Origin: Achromobacter seleniivolatilans
GTDB taxonomy: Bacteria > Pseudomonadota > Gammaproteobacteria > Burkholderiales > Burkholderiaceae_B
NCBI RefSeq assembly: GCF_030864005.1
Contig: NZ_CP132976.1
Span: 5,766,001 to 5,830,000, forward strand
Length of the DNA stretch: 64,000 nucleotides
Reading direction: 5' to 3'
The position numbers and the translations under genes are program-made. The number at the start of each line of letters is the position of its first letter. The stretch's first letter is position 1. This document shows positions 10,308-48,154 of the stretch, in pieces. The notes below the pieces were generated by a model. The model had not been told where the DNA came from. It ran no database searches and saw nothing but the letters and a program-made list of their open reading frames with translations.

Positions 10308-10583
10308 TTAGCGGATTTCGCGTGCTTCGACGTCGATCACATCACCACGCGGTTGCGTAGCGAATGGGGCAGTGGCGGACTGGAACGGACCCGGGCGGAC
10401 GCCTTGGCGCTGGCTCCAATAGGCGCGAACGCCGAAAGGTTTGCCGCGCACCTTGGCGACCACGTACAGGATCGCCACGGCGAGTGCCGTGGACAACATG
10501 AATACCAGCGCCATTGCCATACCGATCAAGGCCAGGGCGGCGAATAGGACGGCACGAAAGAAGCGGATAAGTGTGTTGGTCAT
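10308..10583 (-). CDS. Small membrane protein of unknown function
   Basis: 91 aa. Residues 1-10 are basic (MTNTLIRFFR), then a long hydrophobic region of about 35 residues (AVLFAALALIGMAMALVFML onward) that could make one long or two short membrane helices, then a soluble tail ending VIDVEAREIR. I do not recognise the family. ATG 10583 is used because the longer open frame upstream has no membrane-protein character. It is divergent from mrp with a 100-base gap that probably contains both promoters. Confidence 0.65.
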   Translation of the reverse strand: MTNTLIRFFRAVLFAALALIGMAMALVFMLSTALAVAILYVVAKVRGKPFGVRAYWSQRQGVRPGPFQSATAPFATQPRGDVIDVEAREIR

Positions 10584-10684
10584 GAAGTTGGGATGCAAAA
10601 CGCAGCGAAAGGTTCCCGTGTATCCGCTATCCTTTAGGGGATGGCGGCCCGCAGAAGCCGCGCTGCCTACGGAACCATAGTGAC

Positions 10685-11773: not shown

Positions 11774-11776
11774 CGC

Positions 11777-17424: not shown

Positions 17425-17535
17425 TTTACGGCGGGCCGGCGGGGCGGGACAAACCCGTCCTGCCGCCTCTGCGGGCAGGGTCACCGCGCTCGGGATAAAA
17501 TGAAGTCCATTTCATCCCCTAGCACCATTCCCACC

Positions 17536-18099
17536 ATGAGCATCAAAAGCGACCGCTGGATCCGCCGCCAGGCCGAAACCGGCATGATCGACCCCTTTGA
17601 ACCGGGCCAGGTCCGCACTGCCAATGGCGGGCGTATTGTCAGCTATGGCACCAGCAGCTACGGCTATGACGTGCGCTGCGCCGACGAATTCAAGATTTTC
17701 ACGAACATCAATTCCACCATCGTCGATCCCAAGAATTTCGACGAAGGCTCGTTCGTGGACTTCAAGGGCGATGTCTGCATCATTCCGCCGAATTCGTTCG
17801 CTCTGGCCCGCACGGTTGAATACTTCCGTATTCCGCGCAGCGTGCTGACCATCTGCCTGGGCAAAAGCACTTACGCCCGTTGCGGCATCATCGTCAACGT
17901 GACCCCGCTTGAACCCGAATGGGAAGGCCACGTTACGCTGGAATTCTCGAACACCACGCCGCTGCCGGCCAAAATCTATGCGGGCGAAGGCTGCGCGCAG
18001 ATGCTGTTCCTGGAAAGCGACGAAGTGTGCGAGACCTCGTACGCCGACCGCGGCGGCAAGTATCAAGGGCAACGCGGCGTCACGCTGCCGCGCACCTGA
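17536..18099 (+). CDS. dcd: dCTP deaminase
   Basis: 187 aa, homotrimeric enzyme converting dCTP to dUTP for dTTP synthesis. Family features are [30 protein letters not shown], the catalytic-Glu region [20 protein letters not shown], and the C-terminal nucleotide-closing tail [18 protein letters not shown] 17536 ([13 protein letters not shown]) is chosen as the standard family start; an upstream in-frame ATG adds twelve Ser/Pro-rich residues and lies close to tamB's end. It connects functionally with thyA and folA further along, though it is not linked to them in an operon. Confidence 0.94.
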
Positions 18100-18103
18100 T
18101 CCG

Positions 18104-18574
18104 TCATTCTGCGCGCAGTGGCGCGCGCAGATACTCGATATCCCATTCGCTTTCACTGGTCTGCACAAATCCGTGCCGCCGGTAGAAGCGGTTGGAATCG
18201 CTGTTTCGCAGCGCGCCCACGCGCACGTGCAGCCCTCGGCTGTCGGCGTCTTGCAAAATGTGCCGCAGGACTTGTCCGCCCAGTCCCAACCCCTGGGCCG
18301 CGGGCACGATATACAAATGGTCCAGCCTCAAGTCCTGGCCATCCGGGCGCAGGGCGTAGAACCCCACGCATTGGCCGTTTTGGTTGATCGCCCAGGTACG
18401 CTCCGGCTCAAAGGTCTTTTGCAGGCGCGAACGCGCCCGCTCCGGGTCAAATCGGCCCAGCCGTTCCAGGCTTTCTCGCATGGCTGCTATCCGTATCGCC
18501 AAGAGCGATTCGAAGTCAGCGGCTGACACCGGCCGGTACTGCACCGGCACATCAATATTGACCTGGATCTGCAT
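18104..18574 (-). CDS. GNAT family N-acetyltransferase
   Basis: 156 aa. The acetyl-CoA motif A is LYIVPAAQGLGLGGQVLRHI (Q-x-x-G-x-G type), followed by the strand and helix typical of the fold and the late NRFYRRHGFVQTSESEWDIEY. Motif B and the YRRHGF segment are usual for small-molecule or amino-group acetylases; the substrate cannot be told. ATG 18574 has AAGGA about eight bases upstream; an in-frame ATG at 18607 is possible but lacks such a site. Convergent with dcd. Confidence 0.82.
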   Translation of the reverse strand: MQIQVNIDVPVQYRPVSAADFESLLAIRIAAMRESLERLGRFDPERARSRLQKTFEPERTWAINQNGQCVGFYALRPDGQDLRLDHLYIVPAAQGLGLGGQVLRHILQDADSRGLHVRVGALRNSDSNRFYRRHGFVQTSESEWDIEYLRAPLRAE

Positions 18575-31502: not shown

Positions 31503-31542
31503 AAAAAACCCCCATCGAATAAAAACGATGGGGGTTTTTTTT
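31503..31542. terminator. Bidirectional Rho-independent terminator
   Basis: AAAAAACCCCCATCG and CGATGGGGGTTTTTTTT form a long stem with a T run on either strand. It closes gcvTHP on the plus strand and the convergent ydgA-like gene on the minus strand. Confidence 0.93.
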
Positions 31543-31561
31543 GACCGTTGAATCGGCTGGC

Positions 31562-33532: not shown

Positions 33533-33721
33533 CGTTGTGCTTTAGTCGTTGATTATCGAGTCATATCCGGCAGGCGAGGCGTTCGGACCTTTACGATCAC
33601 TCTCTCGCCCTGGTCTGCCACCGGCATACACATATTCATCGGCCTGTAAGGGCCAGCGGCGGAGTATACGGGGGGGCGTGATCCCTCAACCGTGCGGACC
33701 GTTACCGAAGATTTCAAAATG

Positions 33722-33753
33722 AAAGGCCGGCGTTTTTTGGCGCCGGCCTTTTT
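33722..33753. terminator. Terminator closing the peptide/amide catabolic operon
   Basis: AAAGGCCGGCG (33722-33732) and CGCCGGCCTTT (33741-33751) form an 11-bp stem. On the plus strand it is followed by TTTTT in all; on the minus strand, which matters for the upstream operon, the tail is TTTCATTTT. It lies just past the stop of the last operon gene at 33789. Confidence 0.75.
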
Positions 33754-33788
33754 GTCGACAATGTTCAGAATCCCGAATTTTCCGTAGT

Positions 33789-35264
33789 TTACAGCGGGTC
33801 CAGCGGATAAATCGGGCGGCGCACGTGTTTGAATTCCAGCTGGCTGTAGTCAGACGTAGTGACGCCCACGCCAGTGCATTCGATCACCTGTGTTGCCATG
33901 TCGGAGAAACCCGCCCGCCAGTGCACGCGGCTCTTGAGCACTACATAGCGCTTTTGCAGCGGATCGATGCCAGCCGACAGCAGGCAATTGATGTCGAAGG
34001 GTTCCTGGTGGCGGGAAACTACCACGATTTCCACGCGGCCTGTATCAATCACAACCGTCAGCCCGGTGTCGTTACGCACGCCGCGGTACATAGGGCCGCG
34101 GTTCAGATAGACCCCGTCAAATATCAGTTTGACGCGGCCGGTGACTTCCAGCGGCTCGCTGGGCTGCTTGATGGCTGGCATGGGCAACTTGCCGCCCAGC
34201 TTCAAGGTGATGGTCTTGCCTACGCCCGCTGTGGCGGCTTCCAGCGCCGCCTGCGGGTCGCAGATCGCATAGAAGACGACGTTGTCCAGTTCCTGGCGCA
34301 GCACTTCGGCCAGCACGGCCGTGGTGTCCATGGTGCCGCCCGAACCCGTGTTGTCGAAGTGGTCCAGCAACACGACGGGGCCTTGCTCAATCTGTTTGGC
34401 GCGCGCGATGGTGGGCGCAAGCGGTTCGGGGTGGAAGACCCAGTCGGCGCGGCCGGCCCAGGCGCGTTCCAGCAATTCGTCGCGGTATTGCTCGGCCTCG
34501 GCCAATTTGCCGTCAGTACAGACGACGGCGCTCAGACCCGCTTCGCGAATGTCGGCATGCGGAAAACCCACAAACACCGACGCCGCGAGCACGCCGTTGG
34601 CTTCCAGTTCCTTGCAGCGTTCCTGCAGGGGCTTGTTGGGCGCCGCGTGCGTGCCCTGGCACATGATGTGCGGCAGCATGGGCTTGTTGGCCCACGTCAT
34701 GACCGGTTTGATTTCGCCAGCCAAGGTGCGCACGATGACGTTGGCGGCGCGCACGCCTGCGTCGCGGATGTCTACGTGAGGATAGGTGTGGAACCCGCTG
34801 ATGACCGTGGCGTTGTCCACGATGTCGTCATAGATGTTGGCGTGCATGTCCAAGGTCACGGCCACCGGCGTCTTGGGATCGATCTCGCGCAAGCGGCGCA
34901 GCAGATCGCCTTCTGCATCTTCCACGCCTTCGGCCACCATTGCGCCATGCAGGTCCAGCAAGATGGCATCGAAGCCGCCCTGTTTGACCTGGTCCAGAAT
35001 CAGCTTGCACAGCAGTTCGTGGGTCTCGGCGCTGGTGGGGCCGCTGGGCCAGGACTCAGCCGCTACCGGCACCACCATGTCGGCGCCGACGCGGCGCGCG
35101 ACTTCGATGTAGCCGCCCAAGCCGCTGTCGGTGTTTTCGTAAGCCTTGATGGCGCGCTCGCCAGCCAGGATTTCGGGATTGCCGCGGAAAAAACGTTCGA
35201 GAGGGGTCGGCACGGGCGAATAGGTATTCGTCTCGTGCTTGATCATTGCCAAAAGCCAACGCAT
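33789..35264 (-). CDS. M81 family metallopeptidase (MlrC-like), copy 1
   Basis: 491 aa, of the family of MlrC, the zinc peptidase that cleaves linearised microcystin fragments. The signature HETNTYSP lies near the N-terminus; the metal-ligand regions are LDMHAN (Asp-x-His) and FHTYPHVD; a downstream DHFDNTGSGG motif matches the second domain. No signal peptide, so it is cytoplasmic. ATG 35264 has AGGAA a few bases upstream; further upstream codons are not conserved. It is the last gene of the minus-strand unit, 28 bases after the amidase. The substrate in this organism is unlikely to be microcystin itself; a peptide or amide imported by the adjacent ABC system is more probable. Confidence 0.88.
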   Translation of the reverse strand: MRWLLAMIKHETNTYSPVPTPLERFFRGNPEILAGERAIKAYENTDSGLGGYIEVARRVGADMVVPVAAESWPSGPTSAETHELLCKLILDQVKQGGFDAILLDLHGAMVAEGVEDAEGDLLRRLREIDPKTPVAVTLDMHANIYDDIVDNATVISGFHTYPHVDIRDAGVRAANVIVRTLAGEIKPVMTWANKPMLPHIMCQGTHAAPNKPLQERCKELEANGVLAASVFVGFPHADIREAGLSAVVCTDGKLAEAEQYRDELLERAWAGRADWVFHPEPLAPTIARAKQIEQGPVVLLDHFDNTGSGGTMDTTAVLAEVLRQELDNVVFYAICDPQAALEAATAGVGKTITLKLGGKLPMPAIKQPSEPLEVTGRVKLIFDGVYLNRGPMYRGVRNDTGLTVVIDTGRVEIVVVSRHQEPFDINCLLSAGIDPLQKRYVVLKSRVHWRAGFSDMATQVIECTGVGVTTSDYSQLEFKHVRRPIYPLDPL

Positions 35265-35292
35265 GGGAATTCCTGTGGGTTGCTGTGGAAAG

Positions 35293-36702
35293 TCAGATCG
35301 TCTTCGGGGGCTGGGGCCAGGGGTGTTGCGCAGGACGCATCTGTTCCCAGGCGTGGGCCACGCGTAATACGCCCAGATCGTCAAAGCGTGCGCCGGCAAT
35401 TTGCAGCCCGATGGGCAGGCCCGCCCGCATGTAGCCGCAATTGACGGAGGCAGCTGGCTGCTCGCTCATGTTGAAAGGCAGCGTGAAACCGATGTGGTGC
35501 ATGGTCGTCGCAACTTCATTGGTGGGGGACGGCCATTCGGCGTTGTAGGCCACGACAGGCGCCACGGGCGACAGCACGTAATCAAACGGCGCGCACGCAG
35601 CGACGGTCTTGGCGCGCACGTTCAAGGTTTCGTAATAGCTGCGGAACACAGCTTCGCCCGATTGGCCGCCGCCGCTTTCCGCCCAGGCACGAATGAAGGG
35701 AAGAATCTTGGCACGGCGCGCCTCGGGCAGCGCCGCCAGATCGATGGCCGAGCGCGTGCGCCAGAACCTGTCCACGCCTTCCAGCATGTCGGGCGTCATC
35801 CATGGCAACATCGGCGTGACGATCGCGCCAGCGGCTTCGAAGGCGCGTGCAGCCTCTTCTACCGCCTGCCGGATTTCGGGGTCCAAGGGCAGGCCGCAGC
35901 CAGCATCCATCAGCAGGCCAATGCGCAGGCCGCGAACCTCTTGCGACAGATTCAGCCAGTCAAAGTCTTGAAACGGCAGACTCATGTGGTCACGCGCATC
36001 AGGCTGGGACAGCACGCCCATCATCAGCGCGGCATCCGTGATGGTGCGCGTCATGGGGCCTGCGCAGCGGCCCATGAAGGGCGGGTCGATCGGAATGCGG
36101 CCCAGGCTGGGTTTGAGCGTAGCAACGCCGCACCAGGCGGCGGGCAAACGGACGGAGCCGCCGATATCGGTGCCGATGTGCAGCGGGCCATAACCGGCTG
36201 CTGCCGCAGCGCCCGCGCCCGCGCTGGAGCCGCCGGGGTTCTTGGTCAGGTCCCAGGGGTTGCGAGTCAACTCATGGAAGCTGGACAGTCCCGAGGACAG
36301 CATGCCGTAGTCGGGCATGGTGGTCTTGCCCAGCAGCACCGCGCCGGCTTCACGCATGCGGGCGGCGGGGGGCGCGTCGGCGGCTGCCGGGGTCAGGTCG
36401 GTTGCGGCCGTGCCCAGCGGAATCGGCGTGCCGCGCGTGGCAATGTTTTCCTTGATGGTGGCAGGCACGCCATCCAGCGTGTAGCCGCCGCAGGATTGCG
36501 GCTCACCCTTCATCCAGCGGGCTTCGGACGCTTTAGCCATGGCCAGCGCCTGTTCGGGCTCCAATGCGTAGGTGGCCTTCAGCTTGGGTTCCCAGCGCTC
36601 GATATGTTCCAGCACGGAGCGGGTAGCTTCAACGGGCGAGAGGGTCTTGTTGCGATACGCCTGCAGGAGTTCCTGGGCGGACAGTTCATGCGGTTGTGGC
36701 AT
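35293..36702 (-). CDS. Amidase signature family hydrolase
   Basis: 469 aa, Ser-cisSer-Lys amidase. The catalytic Lys is Lys84 (GVPATIKENIA), the Gly/Ser-rich signature is NPGGSSAGAGAAAAAGYGP (cis-Ser at 159-160), and the nucleophile Ser183 is in GTDIGGSVRLPA. There is no leader peptide, so it acts in the cytoplasm on an amide, N-acyl compound or amino-acid amide. It is not GatA: there is no gatC/gatB neighbour and the ends differ. It sits between the ABC ATPase (45 bases) and M81 copy 1, implying a role in hydrolysing the imported compound. Confidence 0.88.
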   Translation of the reverse strand: MPQPHELSAQELLQAYRNKTLSPVEATRSVLEHIERWEPKLKATYALEPEQALAMAKASEARWMKGEPQSCGGYTLDGVPATIKENIATRGTPIPLGTAATDLTPAAADAPPAARMREAGAVLLGKTTMPDYGMLSSGLSSFHELTRNPWDLTKNPGGSSAGAGAAAAAGYGPLHIGTDIGGSVRLPAAWCGVATLKPSLGRIPIDPPFMGRCAGPMTRTITDAALMMGVLSQPDARDHMSLPFQDFDWLNLSQEVRGLRIGLLMDAGCGLPLDPEIRQAVEEAARAFEAAGAIVTPMLPWMTPDMLEGVDRFWRTRSAIDLAALPEARRAKILPFIRAWAESGGGQSGEAVFRSYYETLNVRAKTVAACAPFDYVLSPVAPVVAYNAEWPSPTNEVATTMHHIGFTLPFNMSEQPAASVNCGYMRAGLPIGLQIAGARFDDLGVLRVAHAWEQMRPAQHPWPQPPKTI

Positions 36703-36747
36703 CTCGGTTCCAGTCGTTGATTCGTTAGGCGACGGGCCTTCAGGGCA

Positions 36748-38445
36748 TCAGGGCGCGGGGGCGTGGGTCAGGCCGGCGGCAATGGGCCGGAAGTTGCGGA
36801 AGTCCCAGTCGCGTCCGGGGGCGGCGTCGATCAGGGCGCGGGTGTATTCATGGCGCGGTTCCGTCAGCACGGTCTCGGCAGAACCGGTCTCGACGACCTT
36901 TCCGCGCTGCATGACCATGATGGTGTCGCAGATCTGCGCGGCAACGCGCAGGTCGTGCGTGATGAACAGCACGCCCACGCCAGTGCGCTGCCGCACTTGT
37001 TCCAGCAGCTCCAGCACTTGGGCTTGGACCGATACGTCCAGGGCCGACACGGCTTCGTCGGCCACCAGGATCTCCGGGTCCATGACCAGCGCACGCGCAA
37101 TGCAGATGCGCTGGCGCTGGCCGCCTGAGAATTGATGCGGGTAGCGGCGCATGGCATCCGGACTCAGTCCCACCACGGTCAGCGTTTCGCCGGCGCGCTT
37201 TAACGCCTGGTCGCGCGGCATGCCAAAGTTCAGCAGCCCTTCAATAATGGACTCGCCAACGGTGCGGCGCGGATTCAGTGACCGGTAGGGGTCCTGGAAC
37301 ACAATCTGGATGCGGCGGCGCACGGGGCGCAGCGCGGAACCGGACAGGGTGCTCAGGTCTTCTCCGCCCATCATCATGTGGCCGGCAGTGGGTTCGATCA
37401 GTCGCACAATGCAGCGCGCCACCGTCGATTTTCCGGAACCGGACTCGCCGACAATGCCCAGGATTTCGCCCTTGCGCAAAGTCAGGTTGACGTCGGTCGC
37501 GGCGATGACGTTGTGCGCCGCCTTGCGTGAAAACAGCGAAGTCTTGCCGCCGTAGGTGCGGCCCAGGCCCTTGACGTGCAGTACCGGCTGGCCTGTAGGC
37601 GCGTCGCGCCGGTTGGGTATCAGGCTGGGCACGGACGACACCAGGCGCCGGGTGTAGGACTGTTTGGGCTCGGCCAGAATCTCGTTGCGCGTGCCGCTTT
37701 CGATCAGATCGCCGCGGTTCATGACGACAATGCGGTCCGAGATCTCGGCAACCACGCCGAAGTCATGGGTGATGAACAGCACGGCCGTCTGATGCTTGAC
37801 TTGCAGTTCCTTGATCAGGGCCAGGATCTGTTTTTGGGTCGTGACGTCCAGCGCCGTGGTCGGCTCGTCGGCAATCAACAGCTTGGGTTCCAGGATCAGC
37901 GCCATGGCGATCACAATGCGCTGGCGCTGGCCGCCCGACAATTGGTGCGGATATGCCTGGAAAATGCGTTCTACATCCGGCAGGTGCACGGACCGGAACA
38001 TCTCCAGCACCTTGGCGCGGCGTTCGGCCGCGTTCATTTTCTTGCGATGCAGGCGCAGCACTTCGTCGACCTGCTGGCCCACGGTATGCACGGGATTCAG
38101 CGCGGTCATGGGTTCCTGGAACACCATGGCCATGCGGGTTGCGCGCATCTCGCGCAAGCGGCGCGGGGTAGCGGTGGCGACGTCCTCGCCTTCAACGCGA
38201 ATCGACCCCGCACTGATGGAAAGAATGCCTTGCGGCAGCAGGCCCATCACTGCCAGTGATGTGACAGACTTGCCCGAGCCGGATTCACCGACCACGCAGA
38301 CCGTTTCGCCAGCATGCACATCCAGGCTGAGGTTGCGCACGACGCGGTTGCCCGCGCCGGCCACTTCCACCGACAGATTGCGGATGGCCAGGATGGCGGG
38401 CGAGGTATCGCCCGCAGGAGGGATAGGGGAGTAGGTCATCGGCAT
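36748..38445 (-). CDS. Dipeptide-type ABC transporter, fused double ATPase (DppD-DppF type)
   Basis: 565 aa with two complete ABC domains in one chain, as in GsiA and YejF. Domain 1 has Walker A GESGSGKSVTS, signature LSGGQRQR and Walker B LLIADEPTTALDV; domain 2 has GESGSGKSTVA, FSGGQRQR and ILVADEAVSALDV (Ala in place of the usual Pro after the catalytic Glu). Each is followed by the oligopeptide-ABC C-terminal region (LVSSVPSLIP). It powers import by the neighbouring permeases and binding protein. Its start overlaps the stop of the DppC-type gene by one base (TGATG). Confidence 0.93.
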   Translation of the reverse strand: MPMTYSPIPPAGDTSPAILAIRNLSVEVAGAGNRVVRNLSLDVHAGETVCVVGESGSGKSVTSLAVMGLLPQGILSISAGSIRVEGEDVATATPRRLREMRATRMAMVFQEPMTALNPVHTVGQQVDEVLRLHRKKMNAAERRAKVLEMFRSVHLPDVERIFQAYPHQLSGGQRQRIVIAMALILEPKLLIADEPTTALDVTTQKQILALIKELQVKHQTAVLFITHDFGVVAEISDRIVVMNRGDLIESGTRNEILAEPKQSYTRRLVSSVPSLIPNRRDAPTGQPVLHVKGLGRTYGGKTSLFSRKAAHNVIAATDVNLTLRKGEILGIVGESGSGKSTVARCIVRLIEPTAGHMMMGGEDLSTLSGSALRPVRRRIQIVFQDPYRSLNPRRTVGESIIEGLLNFGMPRDQALKRAGETLTVVGLSPDAMRRYPHQFSGGQRQRICIARALVMDPEILVADEAVSALDVSVQAQVLELLEQVRQRTGVGVLFITHDLRVAAQICDTIMVMQRGKVVETGSAETVLTEPRHEYTRALIDAAPGRDWDFRNFRPIAAGLTHAPAP

Positions 38446-39350
38446 CAGATCCTGCGCACCATTTTCGGGTCCAGCGCATCGCGCAGGGCGTCGCCCAGAA
38501 TGTTCACGCTAAGCACCGTCAGCGACAGGAACAAGCCGGGAAAGAGAATCAGCCCCGGCAGCATGCGGAAGTACATGCGGCCTTCGGACATGATGTTGCC
38601 CCAAGAGGCGATCTCGGGCGGGATGCCCGCTCCCAGAAAGCTCAGGATGGCCTCGGTCAGCATGGCGGACGCAAAGACATACGTACCCTGCACTGTCAGC
38701 GGCGCGATCGTGCTGGGCACCATGTGACGCCACAGCAGCAGGGGCAGCGGCGTGCCCAGCGCCAGCGCGGCTTCAACATAGGGTTCTTCGCGCACGGTCA
38801 GAATCTGGCCGCGCACGAGCCGCACTACCCGGGGAATTTCGGGAATGGTGATCGCGACCAGCACGGTCATGATGCTGGCGCCGGTGACGGACACCAGGGC
38901 AATCGCCAGCAAAATGCCGGGGATGGCCATGATGGCGTCCATGGTGCGCATGATGATCCCGTCCAGTGATCGGAACCAGCCGGCAATCACGCCGATGACC
39001 AGCCCGATCACCACACTGACGACCGCGGCGCCCAAGCCGGCGATCAGCGAAATGCGGGCGCCGTGAGCCACCCGCGACCAGACATCGCGGCCGAATGCGT
39101 CGGTGCCGAACAGGTAGTCGGTAAAGGGCTGCTTGAGACGAGCGCTGGGGTTGATGAGCGTCGGGTCCACCGAACTCAGCAACGGCGCGAAGAGCGCAAT
39201 GGCGATGATTACCGCCAGCACGATCAGCGCCAGCATCACGGGCCAGCTCTTCAAGCCTTGGCGGACTTGCCGCCAGGCAGTCACTTGGGGGTTGCCGCCT
39301 CCGGGAAGGTCGGCGGCCGCTTGCGCGGCGGCATCGGTTGGCGTTTGCAT
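38445..39350 (-). CDS. Dipeptide-type ABC transporter permease (DppC type)
   Basis: 301 aa, about six membrane helices. The N-terminal OppC-type region (WPVMLALIVLAVIIAIALFA) and YLFGTDAFGRDVWSRVAHGA are typical; the EAA-like loop that contacts the ATPase is EALALGTPLPLLLWRHM-like (AALALGTPLPLLLWRHMVPS). ATG 39350 lies four bases after the stop of the DppB-type gene; an open frame further upstream is only overlap. It pairs with the DppB-type protein to form the membrane channel. Confidence 0.92.
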   Translation of the reverse strand: MQTPTDAAAQAAADLPGGGNPQVTAWRQVRQGLKSWPVMLALIVLAVIIAIALFAPLLSSVDPTLINPSARLKQPFTDYLFGTDAFGRDVWSRVAHGARISLIAGLGAAVVSVVIGLVIGVIAGWFRSLDGIIMRTMDAIMAIPGILLAIALVSVTGASIMTVLVAITIPEIPRVVRLVRGQILTVREEPYVEAALALGTPLPLLLWRHMVPSTIAPLTVQGTYVFASAMLTEAILSFLGAGIPPEIASWGNIMSEGRMYFRMLPGLILFPGLFLSLTVLSVNILGDALRDALDPKMVRRI

Positions 39351-39354
39351 GGCG

Positions 39355-40296
39355 TTAGTACCTGATCCGCGGGTCGAACACCGTGTAGGCGCAATCGACA
39401 ACAAGATTGATGAACACGTAGACGAACGCGAAGAACAACGTCAGGCCCTGAATAACCGGGTAGTCGCGCGCCAGCACGGCTTCGACCACCAGCCGGCCCA
39501 GGCCGGGGATGTTGAACACCGATTCCGTCACGACCACGCCGCTGATCAACAGCGCGATCCCCAGGCCCACCACCGTGGCGATGGGCACGGCGGCGTTGCG
39601 CAGCGCGTGACCCAGCAGCACTCCGGTTTCACCCAGGCCCTTGGAACGCGCCGTGCGGATGAAGTCTTCGCCCATGACCTCGATGACGCTGGTGCGGGTA
39701 ATGCGTGCAATCAGCGCAACATAGACCGTGGACAAGGCAAGCGACGGCAGAATGAGGCGGTGCAGGTAGAGCCAGAAGCCCTTTTCCAGCGGCGTGTAGC
39801 CCTGCACGTTGAACCAGCCCAGCTTGATGGCAAACAGCCAGATCAGCAGGTAGCCCGTGACGAACACCGGCACCGAGAAACCCAGTACCGAAAATCCCAT
39901 CACGGCGCGATCCAGCAGACGGCCTTGCCGCCATGCCGCCAGAACACCCAGCGGAATGGCGACCAGCAGCGTGAAGACCAAGGTCAGCACCGCCAGACTC
40001 AAAGACGGTTCCAAGCGCTGAGAAATCAGTGTAGTGACGGGCACGCCAGACATCAGCGATGTGCCCAGATCGCCTTGCACAAGCTTGGCGCCCCAGATGA
40101 AGAACTGTTTGACGACCGGCTGGTCCAGCCCCATCGTCTGCCGTATCTGGACGATACGTTCAGGCGTGGCGCCGTCGCCTGCCATGATGATGGCCGGATC
40201 ACCCGGGCTCAAACGTAATATCGCGAAGACCACCACCGCGACCATCACCAGAACGGGGATGGTCGCGAGGAGCCGGCGTGAGACAAATGCCAGCAT
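39355..40296 (-). CDS. Dipeptide-type ABC transporter permease (DppB type)
   Basis: 313 aa with the DppB-type opening FVSRRLLATIPVLVMVAVVVF and six predicted helices. The cytoplasmic EAA-like loop is RTARSKGLGETGVLLGHALR. The characteristic GDPAIIMAGDGATPE periplasmic segment follows helix 1, where family members have GDPA. Its start is 26 bases after the binding-protein gene's stop, so it is in the same transcript. Confidence 0.92.
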   Translation of the reverse strand: MLAFVSRRLLATIPVLVMVAVVVFAILRLSPGDPAIIMAGDGATPERIVQIRQTMGLDQPVVKQFFIWGAKLVQGDLGTSLMSGVPVTTLISQRLEPSLSLAVLTLVFTLLVAIPLGVLAAWRQGRLLDRAVMGFSVLGFSVPVFVTGYLLIWLFAIKLGWFNVQGYTPLEKGFWLYLHRLILPSLALSTVYVALIARITRTSVIEVMGEDFIRTARSKGLGETGVLLGHALRNAAVPIATVVGLGIALLISGVVVTESVFNIPGLGRLVVEAVLARDYPVIQGLTLFFAFVYVFINLVVDCAYTVFDPRIRY

Positions 40297-40322
40297 ATAT
40301 TTCCCCCTGAACTACCAGCCCT

Positions 40323-41888
40323 TTAAGGGGCTTTCTTGACGTTCCAGAACGCAAAGACCGGTGCATGCACCAGGCCGGAGAGCTTGGTCGAGTACACCGT
40401 GGGCACGGACATCTGGCCCAGCGGCACGTACAGACCCTCGTCGATGCCGATACGCTGCAATTCGTCGGCAATCTTCTTTTGTTCCGCCGGGTCGGAAGTC
40501 AGCGCGAACTTGGTGCGCAGTTCTTCGACTTGCGGGAAGTCAGGCCAGCCGAACCAGGCGTTGTCGCCATTGGCCGCGGCAGGCGCCGAGCGAACGGGGT
40601 CCATGACGTCGGTGGCGTACCAGTTGGTGTTGTGAATGTTCCAGCCGCCTTCTGCGGGGGCTGCCTTGGATGCGCGGCGCGTGGCCACGCTTTGCCAGTC
40701 CATCGCGGCCAGGTTGACGTTAAAGCCCGCCTTGCGCAGCGCCTGGGCCATCACAACAGGTTGCGCCGACAGCGTGCCCACGTCGGTCGCGTGCATGACC
40801 AGGATGGGGGTGTTGTCGTAACCGGCTTCCTTCAGCAGCGCCTTGGCCTTCTCGATGTTCGACGGGACCACGATGTCCTTGCCGATATCGCTTTCGAACG
40901 GCGTGCCGCAGCCCCACAGCGAGGCGCAGGTCTTCCAGTACTTGGGATTGCCCACCAACGCCTTCATCACGTCTTCCTGACCGATGGCGTACATCGCGGC
41001 CTGACGGATTTTCTTGTTGTTGAACGGCGGATACTTGAAGTTAAAGCGGTACATCGTGAAATAGCCGACCGGGCTTAACGACTCTTCCTTCAAGTCCTTA
41101 TTGCCTTCGATCATCGGCAGCAGGTCATACGGGAACTGTTCGACGAAATCGATCTCGCCGCCCAGCAGCGCGTTGGCGGTTGTCAGCGCATCCGGCATGA
41201 CGTCCCACTCGACCTTGTCCACGTTGACGACCTTGCCGCCGGCCAGGCCGCTTGCGGGTTCCTTGCGCGGCACGTAGTCGGCGTTCTTGGCGTAGACGGT
41301 CTTCACGCCCGGTTTGAACTCGATGACTTTGAACGGGCCGGAACCGGTCATGTCGGTGATGGGCTGGCCAATGGCTTGTTCCGCGATGCGCTTGGGCATC
41401 ATGAAGGGCGCCGTGCCGGTGGGCTTGGACAGAGCGCGCAGCGCCAGGTCCGTGGGTTCTTTCATGACGATGCGAAAGCTGTTGTCGTCGATGACTTCAA
41501 TCTTGTCCGTGAACTTGAGCAGCGTGCGGCCCATGCCGTCACCGGCAGCCCAGCGCTTGATCGATGCCACGCAGTCTTCCGAAGTCACGGGTTTGCCGTC
41601 ATGCCATTTCTGGCCCGCGCGCAATGTCATCGTGTAGGTCTTGCCATCGGGCGAGACCTCCCATTTCTCAAGCATCTGCGGCTGGATCTTGTTGTCGGCG
41701 TCGGTGGCCAGCAACGTGTCGTAGATCATGTAGCCGTGCCACGTCGTGATGTACGCGGTGGTGGCGTGCGGATCGGTCAGGCGCAGCGGCGAGTGCATGA
41801 CCGACTTGATGACGGTCTCGGCATAAGCGCCATGAGCCATCATCAGGGTTGCACCGGCCAATGCGGCCGCTCGGACAAACTTGAGCAT
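40323..41888 (-). CDS. Family 5 extracellular solute-binding protein of the peptide ABC importer
   Basis: 521 aa. A signal peptide of about 23 residues (AALAGATLMMAHGAYA, cleaved before ETVIKS) exports it to the periplasm. Family-5 (DppA/OppA) features are DPHATTAYITTWHGYMIYD, WEVSPDGKTYTMTLRAGQKWHDGKPVTSEDC and GPFKVIEFKPG. It determines what the importer takes up; residues do not allow the ligand to be named. Encoded between M81 copy 2 and the permeases, with an 81-base leader and no terminator. Confidence 0.92.
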   Translation of the reverse strand: MLKFVRAAALAGATLMMAHGAYAETVIKSVMHSPLRLTDPHATTAYITTWHGYMIYDTLLATDADNKIQPQMLEKWEVSPDGKTYTMTLRAGQKWHDGKPVTSEDCVASIKRWAAGDGMGRTLLKFTDKIEVIDDNSFRIVMKEPTDLALRALSKPTGTAPFMMPKRIAEQAIGQPITDMTGSGPFKVIEFKPGVKTVYAKNADYVPRKEPASGLAGGKVVNVDKVEWDVMPDALTTANALLGGEIDFVEQFPYDLLPMIEGNKDLKEESLSPVGYFTMYRFNFKYPPFNNKKIRQAAMYAIGQEDVMKALVGNPKYWKTCASLWGCGTPFESDIGKDIVVPSNIEKAKALLKEAGYDNTPILVMHATDVGTLSAQPVVMAQALRKAGFNVNLAAMDWQSVATRRASKAAPAEGGWNIHNTNWYATDVMDPVRSAPAAANGDNAWFGWPDFPQVEELRTKFALTSDPAEQKKIADELQRIGIDEGLYVPLGQMSVPTVYSTKLSGLVHAPVFAFWNVKKAP

Positions 41889-41969
41889 GGAATTTCCCCT
41901 TGATTCGTAGTGAGCGGCGCTATTGGCCGCTACGTCGTTAACGCGCCGCGCAAGGGCGGCGTGCGAGGG

Positions 41970-43478
41970 TCAGGCGATCGCGGGCCGGCCGGAAAACGCC
42001 GGTCCGCAAGGCGCCATTCTGATGCCGGGACGCAACCGTGTCCATGGTTGTTTTGCCGCATCCATCAGCATCGAGCCAGGGGCGGCGCAAACCAGGATCG
42101 TCTGCGCAATCGGTGTGAAATCAGCGCGAAAGTGCGCGGAGCTCTTTACCACGAGAATCGCGGCGCGCTTGGGTTCGACGCCTGCAAAGCGGAACATTTC
42201 CTGGTCCGCCATCTGCACCTTGTTAGAGGCGACGATGATGCGTACGCCGCCGATGCGCAGGCAGGCGCTTGGACCCAGATCCATGTGAAATCCGCGATAA
42301 AACGCCCCGTGCGTATCAAAGCGGCCATCCGACGTTTTCTCAACGATGAATTCGGTTTCAAGCGGTTCGTCGTCGGGAATACCCGAGTGTCCACCCAGTG
42401 CAATCCGTACCTTGTTTCCCACTCCCGCGCGATGCGCGGCCAGGGCCGCTGCGGGGTCCACAATCAGACCGATTGCGGTGTCGCGCGCATCGTGCCGGAT
42501 CAGTGCGCGCAGCACGCCGGTGGTGTCGGAACTGCCGCCCGCGCCGGGGTTGTCCTGGGCGTCGGCGATGACAATAGGTTTATGCGCGTCCCGCGCCAGC
42601 CGCATCGCTTCCTGGACTGCCTGGTCGGGTGTGTAGAGCGTGCCGCCAAAATCGCGCTCCGCGTTCAGTACCGCGCGTTTCATTTCGTCAGCGGCGGCAT
42701 CGGCCTCGGCCTGGCTTGCGCCATACGCCCATACTGTGGGCGCGCATTCCGGAAAGTCCGCCGCCGGAAAACCCGTGGCGAAAGACAGGCTGGTGGCGCC
42801 GCGCGCCTCAATATCGCCTACCTGCTGGTATAGGCTGCGCGACGGTTCAATGTCGGTCGATTGCCAGCACAGCGAGATCAGGTAGGGCAGATCGCGCAGC
42901 GCTGAAAAGGGACGCGGCATGCCTGCCAGCCGCAGCGATAACAAGGAGGCTGCGCGCTGGCCCGTTTCGGCCATGTCGATATGCGGATAGGTGCGGTAAC
43001 AGACCAGGGCGTCGGCATGGCGCACCATGGCGCGGGTCACGTTGGCGTGCAGGTCCAGGCTGGCTACGACGGGGACATCAGGCCCCACCAGCGCACGGAC
43101 ACGCTTGAGCAATTCACCTTCACCGTCATCCAGATGCTCGGTGACCATCGCCCCATGCAGATCCAGATAGACCCCATCCAGCGGCAATGCTTCTGACAGC
43201 CCTTGCAGGATCATCGCAGTGATGCGTTCAAAGGCGTCTTTGGTGACGAGTCCGGAAGGGCTGGCCGCAGCCCAGGTCGTAGGCACCAGCGTGTGCTGCG
43301 CCATGGCTTCAATGAAGCCCGCCACCGGTATGTTTGCGCCTGCGACTGCTTGGAACAGGGCGGGGCCGCTGACCAGCTTCGGCCATCCTCCGCCTTTCTC
43401 TGCAAAGTCTTCCCACGTCGCGCGCGAGGGCGCAAACGTGTTGGTTTCGTGCTGAAAGCCGCCAATACCGATGCGCAT
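41970..43478 (-). CDS. M81 family metallopeptidase (MlrC-like), copy 2
   Basis: 502 aa. Signature HETNTFAP at residues 10-17, metal-ligand regions LDLHAN and YRTYPHID, and DAQDNPGAGGSSDTTG in the second domain, matching copy 1 in layout but clearly diverged in sequence (for example HTYPH versus RTYPH). Cytoplasmic. It precedes the binding-protein gene by 81 bases and follows mmsA by 138 bases. Two different M81 enzymes in one unit suggest successive or alternative cleavages of the imported molecule. Confidence 0.88.
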   Translation of the reverse strand: MRIGIGGFQHETNTFAPSRATWEDFAEKGGGWPKLVSGPALFQAVAGANIPVAGFIEAMAQHTLVPTTWAAASPSGLVTKDAFERITAMILQGLSEALPLDGVYLDLHGAMVTEHLDDGEGELLKRVRALVGPDVPVVASLDLHANVTRAMVRHADALVCYRTYPHIDMAETGQRAASLLSLRLAGMPRPFSALRDLPYLISLCWQSTDIEPSRSLYQQVGDIEARGATSLSFATGFPAADFPECAPTVWAYGASQAEADAAADEMKRAVLNAERDFGGTLYTPDQAVQEAMRLARDAHKPIVIADAQDNPGAGGSSDTTGVLRALIRHDARDTAIGLIVDPAAALAAHRAGVGNKVRIALGGHSGIPDDEPLETEFIVEKTSDGRFDTHGAFYRGFHMDLGPSACLRIGGVRIIVASNKVQMADQEMFRFAGVEPKRAAILVVKSSAHFRADFTPIAQTILVCAAPGSMLMDAAKQPWTRLRPGIRMAPCGPAFSGRPAIA

Positions 43479-43525
43479 CGGGATTCCCTTGTTATGTGTG
43501 ATGTCGCTGTGTCGTCATGCTGGGC

Positions 43526-43547
43526 GGGCGCGGCAACTGCCGCGCCC
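43526..43547 (-). repeat. Perfect hairpin between mmsA and M81 copy 2
   Basis: GGGCGCGGCA (43526-43535) and TGCCGCGCCC (43538-43547) are exactly complementary and would fold with a four-base loop. No T tract follows on the minus strand, so read-through to the downstream genes, perhaps with mRNA processing or stabilisation, is likely. Confidence 0.45.
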
Positions 43548-43616
43548 TGTGCTCAAGCGGGGTAATGCGTCCTTCTTGAAGTATTCATGCGCTAAAAGTG
43601 TGCCAGGGCGTCTGGC

Positions 43617-45110
43617 TTACTTTGCGACCGGCATGGTGAATTCCGCGCCCTTGGCAATGCTGTCAGGCCAGCGCTGCATCACGCTCTTGTAGCGGGAATA
43701 GAAGCGGATGCCTTCTTCGCCATAGGCGTGGTGGTCGCCGAACAACGAGCGTTTCCAGCCGCCAAAGGAGTGCCAGGCCATGGGCACCGGGATCGGCACG
43801 TTGATGCCAACCATGCCCACTTTGATCTGGCGGGCAAAAGCGCGCGCCACGCCGCCATCCGACGTAAAGCAAGCCACGCCATTGCCGAACTCATGCGCGT
43901 TGATCAATTCGACTGCGCTGGCGAAGTCGGGCACGCGCACAATGCACAGCACCGGTCCAAAAATCTCTTCGCGGTAGATGTTCATCGCGGGCTTCACGTT
44001 GTCGAACAACGTGCCGCCCATGAAGAAGCCTTTTTCGTTGCCGGGCACGGTCAGGTTGCGGCCGTCCACCAGCAGATCGGCGCCAGATGCGATGCCGTCT
44101 TCGATATAGCCCTTGACCTTGTTGCGATGCTGCGCGGTGACGAGCGGGCCCATTTCGGCATCCGCTTGCATGCCGTCCTTGACCACCAGCGCCTTGACGC
44201 GGGGAATCAGGCGTTCGACCACTTTGTCGGCAATATCGCCGACCGCCACGGCCACCGAAATGGCCATGCAGCGTTCGCCGGCGGAGCCGTAGGCCGCGCC
44301 CATCAGTGCATCGGTCACTTGGTCCAGGTCGGCATCGGGCATGACGACCAGATGGTTCTTGGCGCCGCCCAATGCTTGCACGCGCTTGCCGCGCTTGGTG
44401 CCTTCGGAATAGATGTATTCCGCAATGGGAGTCGAACCCACGAACGACAAGGCTTCGACGTCGGGATGGCTGATCAGCGCGTCCACGGCCAGCTTGTCGC
44501 CATGCAGGACGTTGAACACGCCGGGAGGCAGGCCGGCTTCGGTCAGCAGTTCGGCCAGGCGCAGGGACGCGGAGGGGTCGCGTTCCGAGGGCTTGAGCAC
44601 GAAGGTGTTGCCGCAGGCAATCGCCACCGGGAACATCCAGCACGGCACCATCATCGGGAAGTTGAACGGAGTGATACCCGCCACGACGCCCAACGATTGG
44701 CGCATGCTCCAGTTATCAATGCCGCCGCCGATCTGGTCCGAATACTGGCCCTTCAGCAGTTGCGGAATGCCGCAGGCAAATTCCACGATTTCGATCCCGC
44801 GCATGACTTCACCCTTGGCGTCGGAGAAGACCTTGCCATGTTCGCGGGTGATCAGTTCGGCAAGTTCGTCCTGGTGTTTGTCCAGAAGCGCCTTGAAGTT
44901 GAACAGGATGCGTGCGCGCTTGAGCGCCGGGGTTTCAGACCATGCCGGGTAAGCCGCCTTGGCCGAGGCCACGGCCAGCGCCACGTCTTCGGTAGAGGCC
45001 AGCGGGATGGACGAGCAAATCTCGCCCGTGGCGGGGTTGAAGCCGTCGGCGTAGCGGCTGCTGCGGCCGTCGTATTGCTGGCCGTTGATGAAATGGGGGA
45101 TCTTCTTCAT
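43617..45110 (-). CDS. mmsA: CoA-acylating methylmalonate/malonate-semialdehyde dehydrogenase
   Basis: 497 aa, aldehyde dehydrogenase superfamily. The catalytic Cys281 is in [10 protein letters not shown]; Asn150 in TPFNFPMM is the oxyanion Asn; the glutamate used as general base by most aldehyde dehydrogenases is replaced in [15 protein letters not shown], as is normal for the CoA-dependent MmsA branch. It converts methylmalonate or malonate semialdehyde to propionyl- or acetyl-CoA with NAD+ and CO2 release. Next to an omega-amino-acid aminotransferase, it fits the second step of beta-alanine or beta-aminoisobutyrate breakdown. Confidence 0.93.
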
Positions 45111-45149
45111 GGATGGAGGCTCGAAGCGGGATTCGTCAAAAACGTCCTA

Positions 45150-45168
45150 GGGCGGCCATCGGCCGCCC
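45150..45168 (-). repeat. Hairpin between aminotransferase and mmsA
   Basis: GGGCGGCC and GGCCGCCC form an 8-bp stem with an ATC triloop in the 137-base gap. On the minus strand a TTTTT occurs about eight bases later, so partial termination is possible, but co-transcription with mmsA is still expected. Confidence 0.4.
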
Positions 45169-45247
45169 GTAGACTGGGTCAATGCTCGCGGCGGCCGCGG
45201 CGGGGGCTGAACCCCGCCTTGCGGCTGGCCCGCGTAGCGGAGCGAAA

Positions 45248-46573
45248 CTAGGCTACCTCTTTCAGCACCTTGCCGATCTGTTCAAAAATCTGGCCGATCT
45301 GGGCTTCTTCGATGATTAACGGGGGCGACACGGCGATGATGTCACCCGTATAGCGCACCATCAGACCGCTATCGAAGCATTTCTGGAAGACTTCCGAGGC
45401 GCGCGCGCCAGGAGCGCCTGCACGCGGCGCCAGCTCGATGCCGGACACCAGGCCCAGGTTGCGCACGTCGATGACGTGCGGTGCGCCCTTCAGGCTGTGC
45501 GCGGCTTCCTGGAAGGCGCCAGACAGCTTGCGTGCGCGGCCAAACAGGTCGTCGCGGCGATAGATGTCCAGCGTGGCCAGAATGGCAGCGGCGGCAAGCG
45601 GGTGCGCCGAATAGGTGTAACCGTGGAAGAATTCGATGCCGCCGGCGGGGCCGTTCACGATCGCGTCGTGAACTTCACGTTTGACGGCGACCGCGCCTGC
45701 GGGCACGGCAGCGTTGCTGACGCCCTTGGCCATCGCGATGATGTCCGGCGTGACGCCAAAGAATTCGGACGCGGTAGCGGCGCCCAGGCGGCCGTAGGCG
45801 GTGATGACTTCATCAAAAATCAGCAGGATGCCGTGCTTGGACGTGATCTCGCGCAGCTTTTCCAGATAACCCTTGGGCGGAATCAGCACACCGGTTGAGC
45901 CCGCCATGGGCTCGACGATGACGGCGGCGATGGTGGACGCGTCGTGCAGGGCAACGATGCGTTCCAGCTCTTCAGCCAGATTGGCGCCCCAGGCGGGCTG
46001 GCCCTTGGAATAGGCGTTTTGTTCCAGGTTGTGCGTGTGCGGCAGATGATCCACCGAGGGCAGCAGCGCGCCGGAGAAGGTCTTGCGGTTAGTCGAGATG
46101 CCGCCGACCGAGATCCCGCCAAAACCCACGCCGTGGTAGCCGCGCTCACGGCCGATCAGGCGGGTGCGCTGGCCTTCGCCACGGGCGCGGTGATAGGCCA
46201 GGGCGATCTTCAAGGATGTGTCGACCGACTCGGAACCGGAGTTCGTGAAGAAGACGCGGTCCAACCCTTGGGGCATCAGGCCGGCCACAGCCGTGGCGGC
46301 TTCGAAGGCCAGCGGGTGGCCCAGCTGGAAACCCGGGGCGTAATCCATGATGCCGGCCTGGCGGGAAATCGCGTCGACGATTTCCTGGCGGCCGTGGCCG
46401 GCGTTGACGCACCACAGGCCGGCGGTGCCGTCCAGGATCTGACGGCCATCGGCCGAGGTGTAGTACATGCCTTTGGCCGTTGCCAACATGCGCGGATGGG
46501 CCTTGAACTGTTTGTTGGCAGTAAAGGGCATCCAGAGATGGGACAGATCGGGCAACTCGGCGGGGGCATTCAT
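45248..46573 (-). CDS. Omega-amino acid (beta-alanine type):pyruvate aminotransferase
   Basis: 441 aa, class III PLP aminotransferase of the BauA / omega-APT type. LWMPFTANKQFK near the start, FFTNSGSESVDTSLK (cofactor phosphate loop), RGYHGVGFGG, Asp254 in IFDEVITAYGRLG and the PLP lysine Lys283 in AMAKGVSNA are typical. The reaction moves the terminal amino group of beta-alanine or a related omega-amino acid to pyruvate, giving malonate semialdehyde and alanine. ATG 46573 has GGAG six bases before it. First gene of the minus-strand unit; divergent from a MocR-type regulator. Confidence 0.9.
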   Translation of the reverse strand: MNAPAELPDLSHLWMPFTANKQFKAHPRMLATAKGMYYTSADGRQILDGTAGLWCVNAGHGRQEIVDAISRQAGIMDYAPGFQLGHPLAFEAATAVAGLMPQGLDRVFFTNSGSESVDTSLKIALAYHRARGEGQRTRLIGRERGYHGVGFGGISVGGISTNRKTFSGALLPSVDHLPHTHNLEQNAYSKGQPAWGANLAEELERIVALHDASTIAAVIVEPMAGSTGVLIPPKGYLEKLREITSKHGILLIFDEVITAYGRLGAATASEFFGVTPDIIAMAKGVSNAAVPAGAVAVKREVHDAIVNGPAGGIEFFHGYTYSAHPLAAAAILATLDIYRRDDLFGRARKLSGAFQEAAHSLKGAPHVIDVRNLGLVSGIELAPRAGAPGARASEVFQKCFDSGLMVRYTGDIIAVSPPLIIEEAQIGQIFEQIGKVLKEVA

Positions 46574-46695
46574 GGCGGCTCCAGGGGAAGGACAACCGCC
46601 GGAGTCTGCATGCAAAGGGCGCAGCCGGCGGGATGCAAACGATTCTGGTACGTCCTGAAGGGAATGAAAATATACGATCTGCGCAAATGCGGCTA

Positions 46696-46728
46696 ACTGT
46701 ATAGTCGAGGGCAGCACAACTGTACAGT
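46696..46728. promoter_or_regulatory. Divergent promoter with twin palindromic operator
   Basis: ACTGTATAGT (46696-46705) and ACTGTACAGT (46719-46728) are near-identical palindromes whose starts are 23 bp apart, about two helix turns. On the minus strand TGTACA, a 17-base spacer and TATACA could be the -35 and -10 of the aminotransferase gene, so the repeats would overlap both boxes. Spaced direct copies are the usual target of MocR-type dimers. Confidence 0.6.
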
Positions 46729-46735
46729 TATCTCC

Positions 46736-48154
46736 GTGATTGATTTCCAGCCCAACCGCGCTCGCGGGCTAGCGCCCACTCTGGTCGAGCAACTGGTGGC
46801 GGCGATTCTGCGCGCCATTGAAGAACAGACACTGCGTCCGGGTATGTCCCTACCCTCGGTGCGCGACTTCGCGCGCCAGTACGGCGTCAGCACGTTCACC
46901 GTGGCCAGCGCTTACAGCCGGTTGGTATCGCTGGGGTGGCTGGCGGCGCGTCCGGGCGCGGGGTATCGGGTGGCTCACCCTGACGCGCCTGCGCGCCGGG
47001 GTGAGCCGCTATCCTGGGAGCCGCCCCGACTGAATGCCGGTTGGCTGCTGTCGGATATCTTTGCGGACCACTCCATTCCCATCAAGTCCGGGTGCGGCTG
47101 GCTGCCAGGGGAATGGTTGAACGAAGAAGGGCTGCATGTGGCGTTGCGCCACATGGGCCGGGTGCCGGCCATGCGCATCGCCAATTACGGCCATCCCTAC
47201 GGTTATGCGCCCCTGCGCGAAACGATCGCGGCCAGCCTTAGCGCCCAGGGGATGGAGGTGGATGTTTCGCAGGTGCTGCTGACCCAGGGCGTGACGCACG
47301 GGCTGGATATGGTGATCCGCACCTTGCTGCGTCCCGGTGACACGGTGGTCGTTGAGCAGCCCGCCTACGCCAACCTGCTGCAAATGCTGCGCCTGGCGGG
47401 TTTGCGAGTGGTGCCGGTGCCGCGGACCGTTGAAGGTCTGGATTGCGATGCGCTGGAGCGTGTGGCGGCCCAGCACAGGCCCAGTGCGCTATTCATCAAT
47501 ACCGCCTTGCAGAACCCTTCGGGCGCCAGCATCAGCATGGCCAATGCATTCCGCATTCTGCAAGTCGCTGAACGCCATGGCTTGTGGGTGATCGAAGACG
47601 ATATTTCACGCGAGCTCGCGCCTGGCGTGACGCCGATTCTTGCCGCGCTGGACGGCGGGCGGCGCGTCGTCTATCTGGGCGGATACTCCAAGGTGATCAG
47701 CCCGTCAGTGCGAGTCGGTTATGTCGTGGCGCATCGAGATCTGACGCGCGATATTGCGCGGACCAAGATGGCGGTGGGATTGACCTCGCCCGAGATCATG
47801 GAGCGCATCGTGCATCAGGTTATCCGCGAAGGCCGGTACCGCGCGCATATAGCACGCACCCGCGAGCGGCTGGCCGAGGCGCATGCGGGCGTGGCCCGGC
47901 TGATGGGCGAACACGGGTTCGAGATCTATGGACGGCCGCAAGGCGGCTTGTTCCTGTGGGCCAAGGTGGCTGGCAGCTGGCGCGAACGCGGCGCCAACGG
48001 TCTGGCCGAACTGGCGTTGAAGGACGGTATCTGGCTCGCGCCGGGCTCTTATTTTGAGGCGGACGAAGCCGACACCCCCTGGGTACGCTTTAACGTGGCG
48101 TATTCCGAGGCGCCCGCGTTATGGCGCTTTATGCGCAATGCGGGCGCCGCCTGA
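46736..48154 (+). CDS. MocR/PdxR-type GntR transcriptional regulator
   Basis: 472 aa. The N-terminal GntR winged helix (about 10-75: LRPGMSLPSVRDFARQYGVS, TVASAYSRLVSLGWL) is joined to an aspartate-aminotransferase-like domain with NTALQNPSGASI, EDDISRELAPG and the PLP lysine Lys319 in YLGGYSKVISPSVRVGY. Members sense an amino compound or PLP and activate or repress catabolic genes. The start is GTG 46736, right after the twin palindrome. It most likely controls the divergent aminotransferase operon and itself. Confidence 0.92.
   Translation: MIDFQPNRARGLAPTLVEQLVAAILRAIEEQTLRPGMSLPSVRDFARQYGVSTFTVASAYSRLVSLGWLAARPGAGYRVAHPDAPARRGEPLSWEPPRLNAGWLLSDIFADHSIPIKSGCGWLPGEWLNEEGLHVALRHMGRVPAMRIANYGHPYGYAPLRETIAASLSAQGMEVDVSQVLLTQGVTHGLDMVIRTLLRPGDTVVVEQPAYANLLQMLRLAGLRVVPVPRTVEGLDCDALERVAAQHRPSALFINTALQNPSGASISMANAFRILQVAERHGLWVIEDDISRELAPGVTPILAALDGGRRVVYLGGYSKVISPSVRVGYVVAHRDLTRDIARTKMAVGLTSPEIMERIVHQVIREGRYRAHIARTRERLAEAHAGVARLMGEHGFEIYGRPQGGLFLWAKVAGSWRERGANGLAELALKDGIWLAPGSYFEADEADTPWVRFNVAYSEAPALWRFMRNAGAA

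Follow-up and report, generated by a model that had tools for sequence, protein, structure and literature searches.

We describe here a ten-gene locus that lies between positions 33722 and 48154 of a window of 64,000 nucleotides (the whole stretch of DNA analysed) from the genome of Achromobacter seleniivolatilans (contig NZ_CP132976.1, positions 5,766,001 to 5,830,000). A MocR-family regulator gene is divergent there from the genes of an omega-amino acid:pyruvate aminotransferase (AptA) and an MmsA-type dehydrogenase, and these are followed by a Dpp-type importer, two M81 metallohydrolases (M81a and M81b) and an amidase. The MocR-AptA-MmsA part is the known OapR-OapT-OapD system and is not new, while the new part is the importer and M81 addition behind oapD. 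We somewhat favour the view that the OapR-controlled beta-alanine operon oapT-oapD has been enlarged in this way into an uptake-plus-hydrolysis route. The original prediction, made from the sequence of the window, had proposed a possible undescribed operon for compounds containing beta-amino acids. Its order, strands and families for the ten genes were all found in ORF (open reading frame), domain and profile checks; the term undescribed does not hold for the regulator, aminotransferase and dehydrogenase and may stand for the importer and M81 extension. No description of the full set was found among the open-licence papers listed, with a possible overlap with a Bordetella prediction in the accessible part of PMC5320631.

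In the favoured route, the Dpp/Gsi-type ABC importer would take up a small molecule whose amino end is free, and cytoplasmic M81b, a zinc hydrolase, would cut the imported conjugate to beta-alanine or a close omega-amino acid, assisted by M81a and the amidase where these are present. OapT would then transfer the amino group to pyruvate, yielding malonate semialdehyde, which OapD would convert to acetyl-CoA, and OapR would sense beta-alanine and turn the operon on. Homology in this locus or experiment in a relative backs the zinc site, the linkage, and the part made up of regulator, aminotransferase and dehydrogenase. Import of a conjugate, hydrolysis by M81b and catabolism of beta-alanine or a near relative constitute the simplest reading, given an acidic residue in the solute-binding protein (SBP), an intact zinc site and OapR-OapT-OapD.

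The OapR-OapT-OapD core and its putative operator

The regulator gene (46736-48154, + strand) encodes an OapR-type protein of 472 amino acids with GntR and Aminotran_1_2 domains, for which the top NCBIfam model was PdxR with 259.8 bits, below its cut-off of 320. As had been predicted, it is divergent from aptA/oapT (45248-46573, − strand). The aptA product, 441 amino acids in length, scored 719.6 bits on the omega-aminotransferase AptA model NF052567 (cut-off 500), a value computed with a longer ORF, and its nearest PDB structure was 4b98, a beta-alanine:pyruvate transaminase. The most likely start codon is the ATG at 46573, from whose residue 1 the relatives align, and it is unlikely from the sequence comparison that the longer ORF from the GTG at 46717 has the true start. 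The mmsA/oapD gene (43617-45110, − strand) encodes a CoA-acylating (methyl)malonate-semialdehyde dehydrogenase (TIGR01722, 699.9 bits, cut-off 448.5). The window thus shows the architecture of OapR-OapT-OapD, with a MocR gene divergent from those of an omega-amino acid:pyruvate aminotransferase and an MmsA-type dehydrogenase.

Reporters have shown a response of the MocR regulator OapR of Cupriavidus necator to beta-alanine (PMC7057948), and a role with beta-alanine-generating substrates has been proposed for MocR-aptA-mmsA1 of strain H16 (H16_A0271-A0273; PMC6572756). We take the two loci to be the same one, an assumption of this analysis, the locus-tag systems of the two papers being different. 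The beta-alanine role which had been assigned to the aminotransferase and MmsA pair therefore has experimental backing in a relative (PMC7057948).

A putative OapR operator was located at 46695-46729 (− strand), with an inverted AACTGT box and two direct ACAGTT boxes spaced 23 bp apart, and it fits the betaproteobacterial OapR motif as described in PMC5320631. The pattern drawn from this site had one match in the 6.86-Mb genome and none in a reversed control; the exact OapR-type operator is found only upstream of aptA in this genome and none precedes M81a. Among 58 loci examined, 51 had a MocR-AptA intergenic region, and 30 of these had both direct boxes without mismatch at the 23-bp spacing (26/26 in the genus of the window and 4/12 in the Bordetella clade). 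An exact direct box was absent from 4 of the 51 regions (L030, L151, L156, and L163), and of the 26 loci from the genus of the window only 15 had an exact inverted box next to the direct ones.

Since OapR, OapT, and OapD were assigned to gamma-aminobutyrate (GABA) in the 2016 regulon paper, which also predicts a GabR paralogue controlling gabT2 and dppABCD in Bordetella (PMC5320631), the operon might instead serve a conjugate of GABA or of another omega-amino acid. In this regard, a GABA-type class III aminotransferase gene lies near the M81a-importer locus of genome G138, on the opposite strand, and another class III aminotransferase, like the C-terminal part of PRK06148, is encoded upstream of that of G135. 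MmsA-type enzymes accept methylmalonate semialdehyde, which would suit 3-aminoisobutyrate. However, the dehydrogenase is MmsA-type by its curated model and the OapR of C. necator responds to beta-alanine (PMC7057948), so that we regard a conjugate other than one of beta-alanine as improbable.

Conservation of the importer and M81 genes behind oapD

Downstream of mmsA, all on the − strand, are the genes of M81a (41970-43478; PF07364 and PF07171), the family-5 SBP (40323-41888; PF00496), a DppB-type permease (39355-40296; BPD_transp_1), a DppC-type permease (38445-39350; BPD_transp_1 and OppC_N), a fused double ATPase (36748-38445), a PRK07042 amidase (35293-36702; NF005450, 774.1 bits, cut-off 458), and M81b (33789-35264; PF07364 and PF07171). 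The parts of a Dpp/Opp importer (family-5 SBP, two BPD permeases, and ABC ATPase) are thus all present. The DppC ORF opens at 39404 and the ATG at 39350 is the likely start. The ATPase is GsiA/YejF-like and has two ABC_tran stretches, with the YejF and GsiA models on top, both under their cut-offs. The intergenic gaps are of 137 nt (AptA-MmsA), 138 nt (MmsA-M81a), 81 nt (M81a-SBP), 26 nt (SBP-DppB), 45 nt (ATPase-amidase), and 28 nt (amidase-M81b), and the DppC and ATPase genes overlap by 1 nt. The terminator expected after the second M81 gene corresponds to an intrinsic-terminator-like hairpin at 33751-33722 (− strand), with an 11-bp stem followed by CATTTTG; its stability was −21.7 kcal/mol (z = −4.17) and none of 200 shuffled sequences was equally stable. 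It was not among the matches of a consensus terminator scan.

When M81a, AptA, M81b, and MmsA were used as queries against 200 family genomes, AptA-like genes were revealed in 145 (E ≤ 1e-120), M81a-like genes in 85, and M81b in 34 (E ≤ 1e-150). In 29 of these 34 genomes M81b had 81-100% identity (11 from g1, the genus of the window, 8 from g15, 8 from g36, and 2 from g9), and in all 29 it was separated from AptA/oapT by about 10.3 kb at most, the AptA of G156 being cut by a contig end. The best M81b copies of the remaining five (58-66%) were outside such an operon. The genes therefore form a conserved neighbourhood, and co-occurrence in related genomes, on which the original prediction had been made to depend beforehand, was found.

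Two of the genes proposed as members proved dispensable. Of the 29 genomes, 23 had M81a (at least 81% identity) at the locus and six lacked it there (G045, G068, G092, G176, G009, and G049). An M81a-based search gave 80 loci, 35 of them Achromobacter (26) or Bordetella (9) loci of this operon, a set which, being found through M81a, cannot show how often M81a is absent. AptA, MmsA, and the SBP were present in all 35, and M81b in all but two, both on short contigs. The amidase was present in 24, namely in 24/26 Achromobacter loci (the other two were cut short) and in 0/9 Bordetella loci; at an oapT locus it was seen only in Achromobacter. The other 45 loci, mostly from Bradyrhizobium and metagenome-assembled genomes (MAGs), had no AptA, with the importer present or absent. 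The common core is oapT-oapD-SBP-DppB-DppC-ATPase-M81b, with M81a and the amidase as variable members.

In Achromobacter, Bordetella, and one other genus, oapD and gcvP enclose the importer (SBP-DppB-DppC-ATPase) and M81b. The genes of g9 run as MocR, AptA-MmsA-SBP-DppB-DppC-ATPase-M81b, gcvP, and Achromobacter has one extra gene (31541-33649 in the window) between M81b and gcvP. For comparison, 15 regions around AptA without the block (L149-L163) were inspected: gcvP abuts AptA in six (L155 and L159-L163) and MmsA in two (L151 and L154), and in the remaining seven other DNA intervenes, gcvP is on the opposite side, or it was not observed. The block is placed between oapD and gcvP on account of the gene order in g9 and Achromobacter, together with the eight block-free regions in which oapT or oapD abuts gcvP. 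It was co-directional with oapT in every block-bearing locus seen. In a tree of 55 AptA sequences (40 with and 15 without the block), block presence needs five changes, and the fusion of oapTD with the importer may have been a single event inherited vertically. Judged by AptA, the closest relatives of the genome are Achromobacter. Within the Bordetella clade, G113 and G197 have MocR-AptA-MmsA alone and G015 has AptA alone, with no block genes at these loci, which we read, from gene content, as probable losses of the whole block. These comparisons suggest a stepwise growth of the operon, in which oapT was followed by oapD, then by the importer and M81b, then by M81a, and finally by the amidase.

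Joint expression of the two halves is best supported by G068 and G176. In both, the place of oapD is taken by a different MmsA (57% identity to that of the window; the G176 copy scored 479.6 bits with the MMSDH model), the stop codon of which overlaps the start of the SBP gene by 7 nt. From this arrangement, co-transcription of MmsA and importer is very likely in these two genomes, and in the window we infer read-through from oapTD into the importer block.

Two neighbouring genes were also recorded. The gene at 31541-33649 (+ strand), convergent with M81b, encodes a 702-amino-acid protein without Pfam matches at 1e-10. It changes fast, with 46-68% identity within the genus of the window and about 31-36% in the Bordetella loci listed. 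A gene at 48758-50821 (− strand), between thyA and the MocR gene, encodes an MHYT-GGDEF-EAL protein and was present in the Achromobacter loci reaching that far and not in the Bordetella loci.

The solute-binding protein and the M81 hydrolases

Asp427 of the SBP aligns with Asp408 of E. coli DppA, which we take to be the contact for the peptide amino group. This position was occupied by Asp or Glu in all nine aligned homologues and by Ser in E. coli GsiB. The acid at Asp427 therefore fits a ligand with a free amino group, as far as such an alignment indicates.

Both M81 proteins had MlrC (7ylq) as best PDB match. They were compared with the N-terminal part of MlrC in an alignment of 32 rows (MlrC, M81a, M81b, and 29 relatives), taking zinc-ligand and substrate-residue positions from PMC9982164; the substrate-binding residues of the C-terminal part of MlrC are D341, S392, Q468, S485, and R492. 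The zinc ligands E39, D167, H169, and H191 as well as H133 (MlrC numbering) were identical in all 32 rows. Of the five N-terminal substrate residues, N41 alone was kept in both M81 proteins, as it was throughout the 32 rows; W59 was kept in M81a only, and F67, E70, and F96 were changed in both in the multiple alignment. The E70 column depends on the alignment, as pairwise HMMER sets a Glu of M81b at E70 and the multiple alignment and the relatives do not. Because most of these substrate-binding residues are not kept, kinship with MlrC alone is no argument for a beta-amino-acid substrate, and the appeal to MlrC and its Adda residue in the original prediction was weak apart from the shared zinc site.

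A degradation route for Adda peptides of the microcystin or nodularin type, which the top PDB match might evoke, is hardly credible, given the changes at F67, E70, and F96 in both proteins, scores of 186.9 and 180.7 bits on the curated MlrC model (cut-off 999), and the lack of MlrA or MlrB family matches in any of the ten genes. Microcystin-type degradation was accordingly rejected, the model being far below its cut-off and the substrate residues changed.

Besides MlrC, no M81 protein with a tested substrate was found among the open-licence papers listed. For the enlarged operon, the type of substrate, the bond that is cleaved, and what each of the two M81 proteins contributes are inferences of ours; carnosine and pantothenate are guesses at the substrate. 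Only tentatively do we suggest the more specific idea that M81b is a zinc peptidase or amidase specialised in beta-aminoacyl (beta-alanyl) substrates, within an operon that forms a complete import-and-burn route for a beta-alanyl compound. If this is true, the M81 family, of which little has been characterised, would gain a physiological function, and a beta-alanine-conjugate importer would be named. In any case, the locus links one M81 protein with a pathway for which a relative has revealed the inducer. Because of this known inducer, the substrate of M81b could be searched for with a short list of compounds and the existing beta-alanine biosensor.

M81-importer modules elsewhere and comparison with known systems

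M81a-like genes are often found beside peptide importers. In Bradyrhizobium, importer-M81 modules are accompanied by M20 peptidases and amidases; a 3-hydroxyisobutyrate-dehydrogenase-like gene, an aldehyde dehydrogenase, and an M20 peptidase are near the module of L040, a gamma-glutamyltransferase is near that of G128, and class III aminotransferases are near those of G135 and G138. These neighbours support a peptide or amide role for such modules, whose substrate may vary. Among L165-L184, 2 of the 14 regions with an importer beside M81 encode a class III aminotransferase, a figure of little weight, the background rate being lacking. A search of 398 genomes of the phylum gave M81b relatives (E ≤ 1e-80) in 15, that of the window included, with 18 further regions, and an OapT match was found in none of these 18.

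Several observations weigh against an enlarged beta-alanine operon. In regions L165-L184 importer genes were beside M81 in 14 of 20 and an OapT ortholog in none. Bordetella has further M81-importer-amidase sets away from oapT (L220-L222; three of eight SBP-paralogue regions). The nearest solved structure to the SBP, 8vdx, named merely solute-binding protein and more distant than the homologues above, has Asn at the position of Asp427. Gaps of 137 and 138 nt flank mmsA in the window, and the gap between MmsA and M81a, of up to 495 nt in relatives, holds hairpins, and a short stretch of T residues comes after the first of them; transcription may end there in part or start from an additional promoter. 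The flanking thyA and gcvP genes are syntenic too, and the shared locus probably reflects few events among related genomes. One Bordetella-clade genome, G103, keeps the block with no mmsA in the operon. Finally, growth of C. necator on carnosine has been reported, and its operon is described as consisting of aptA and mmsA1 only (PMC6572756).

The importer-M81 block could consequently be a general scavenging module for peptides or amides (isopeptide, gamma-glutamyl-type) which landed behind oapD by chance, was kept there by synteny, and has its own promoter and no link to beta-alanine. Such modules without oapT occur in many loci, as the Bradyrhizobium, G128, and other Bordetella sets illustrate, and the synteny of thyA and gcvP and the lack of an exact OapR operator before M81a in this genome agree with it. 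However, it does not account well for the overlap of mmsA and SBP genes in G068 and G176 with a different MmsA in the same slot, for a block co-directional with oapT in every locus seen, or for G113, G197, and G015, whose loci are devoid of all block genes, the pattern that a unit would give. We consider a chance landing possible but doubtful.

Two candidate links were set aside. In G044 an AptA-type aminotransferase (48%, 688 bits), LysR, MocR, and M81b adjoin; the M81b and MocR genes are convergent, so that it was kept as a neighbourhood only and not as an independent repeat. In L079 the gene of a type III pantothenate kinase is close to M81a; it was not accepted as a beta-alanine link, since L084 has a biotin/lipoate ligase-family gene right after M81a; the genes searched there suggest that the M81a surroundings of both are a birA-coaX housekeeping neighbourhood. 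L079 is titled a Bordetella parapertussis MAG and is possibly mislabelled, with M81a at 60% and a gene order unlike that of the Bordetella loci.

Other M81 regions showed further arrangements. L165 holds in one run without oapT (3708-18570) M81b, a gamma-glutamyltransferase, three SBPs, DppB, DppC, an ATPase, M81b, and M81a. An MmsA relative (55%) lies at the edge of L201 (2-685), a region with a distant M81b (40%). In L189, from G103, the gap between AptA and M81a is of 556 bp (6478-7035). M81a is near an RPE65-family protein and a DUF2201 metallopeptidase-like gene in Rhodopseudomonas (L045, 15033-17893). In both L186 and L187, two M81 genes converge and small, separately encoded ABC ATPases occur close by (25-27% identity to that of the window; Liv-type is a guess), and L186 also has an M20 peptidase and a beta-lactamase-family PF00144 protein, PF00144 being presumably the MlrB family.

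With respect to known systems, E. coli iaaA-gsiABCD, which pairs a peptidase with the glutathione importer, likewise has the genes of the peptidase, a family-5 SBP, two permeases, and a single large ATPase side by side. Its peptidase is annotated as isoaspartyl dipeptidase whereas that of the window is M81, GsiB has Ser where the SBP of the window has an acid, and the run shown contains no aminotransferase. MlrC, the linearised-microcystin hydrolase (7YLQ, PMC9982164), shares with the M81 proteins the family, all zinc ligands, H133, and N41, and in the N-terminal part compared it differs from both at F67, E70, and F96 and from M81b at W59; unlike MlrC, they adjoin an aminotransferase route. 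The gabT2-dppABCD prediction for Bordetella, which also carries the present operon, resembles it in the MocR regulator, aminotransferase, and Dpp-type importer; it is described for GABA with GabT2, with no peptidase named in the accessible part of PMC5320631, and may possibly be the present locus. A close likeness in regulation and catabolism is with C. necator H16 OapR-oapTD, which has the divergent MocR, omega-aminotransferase, MmsA-type dehydrogenase, and operator box architecture (PMC7057948, PMC5320631). There the operon is described, in the accessible part of PMC6572756, as aptA and mmsA1 only, to which the window adds a co-directional importer, two M81 hydrolases, and an amidase.

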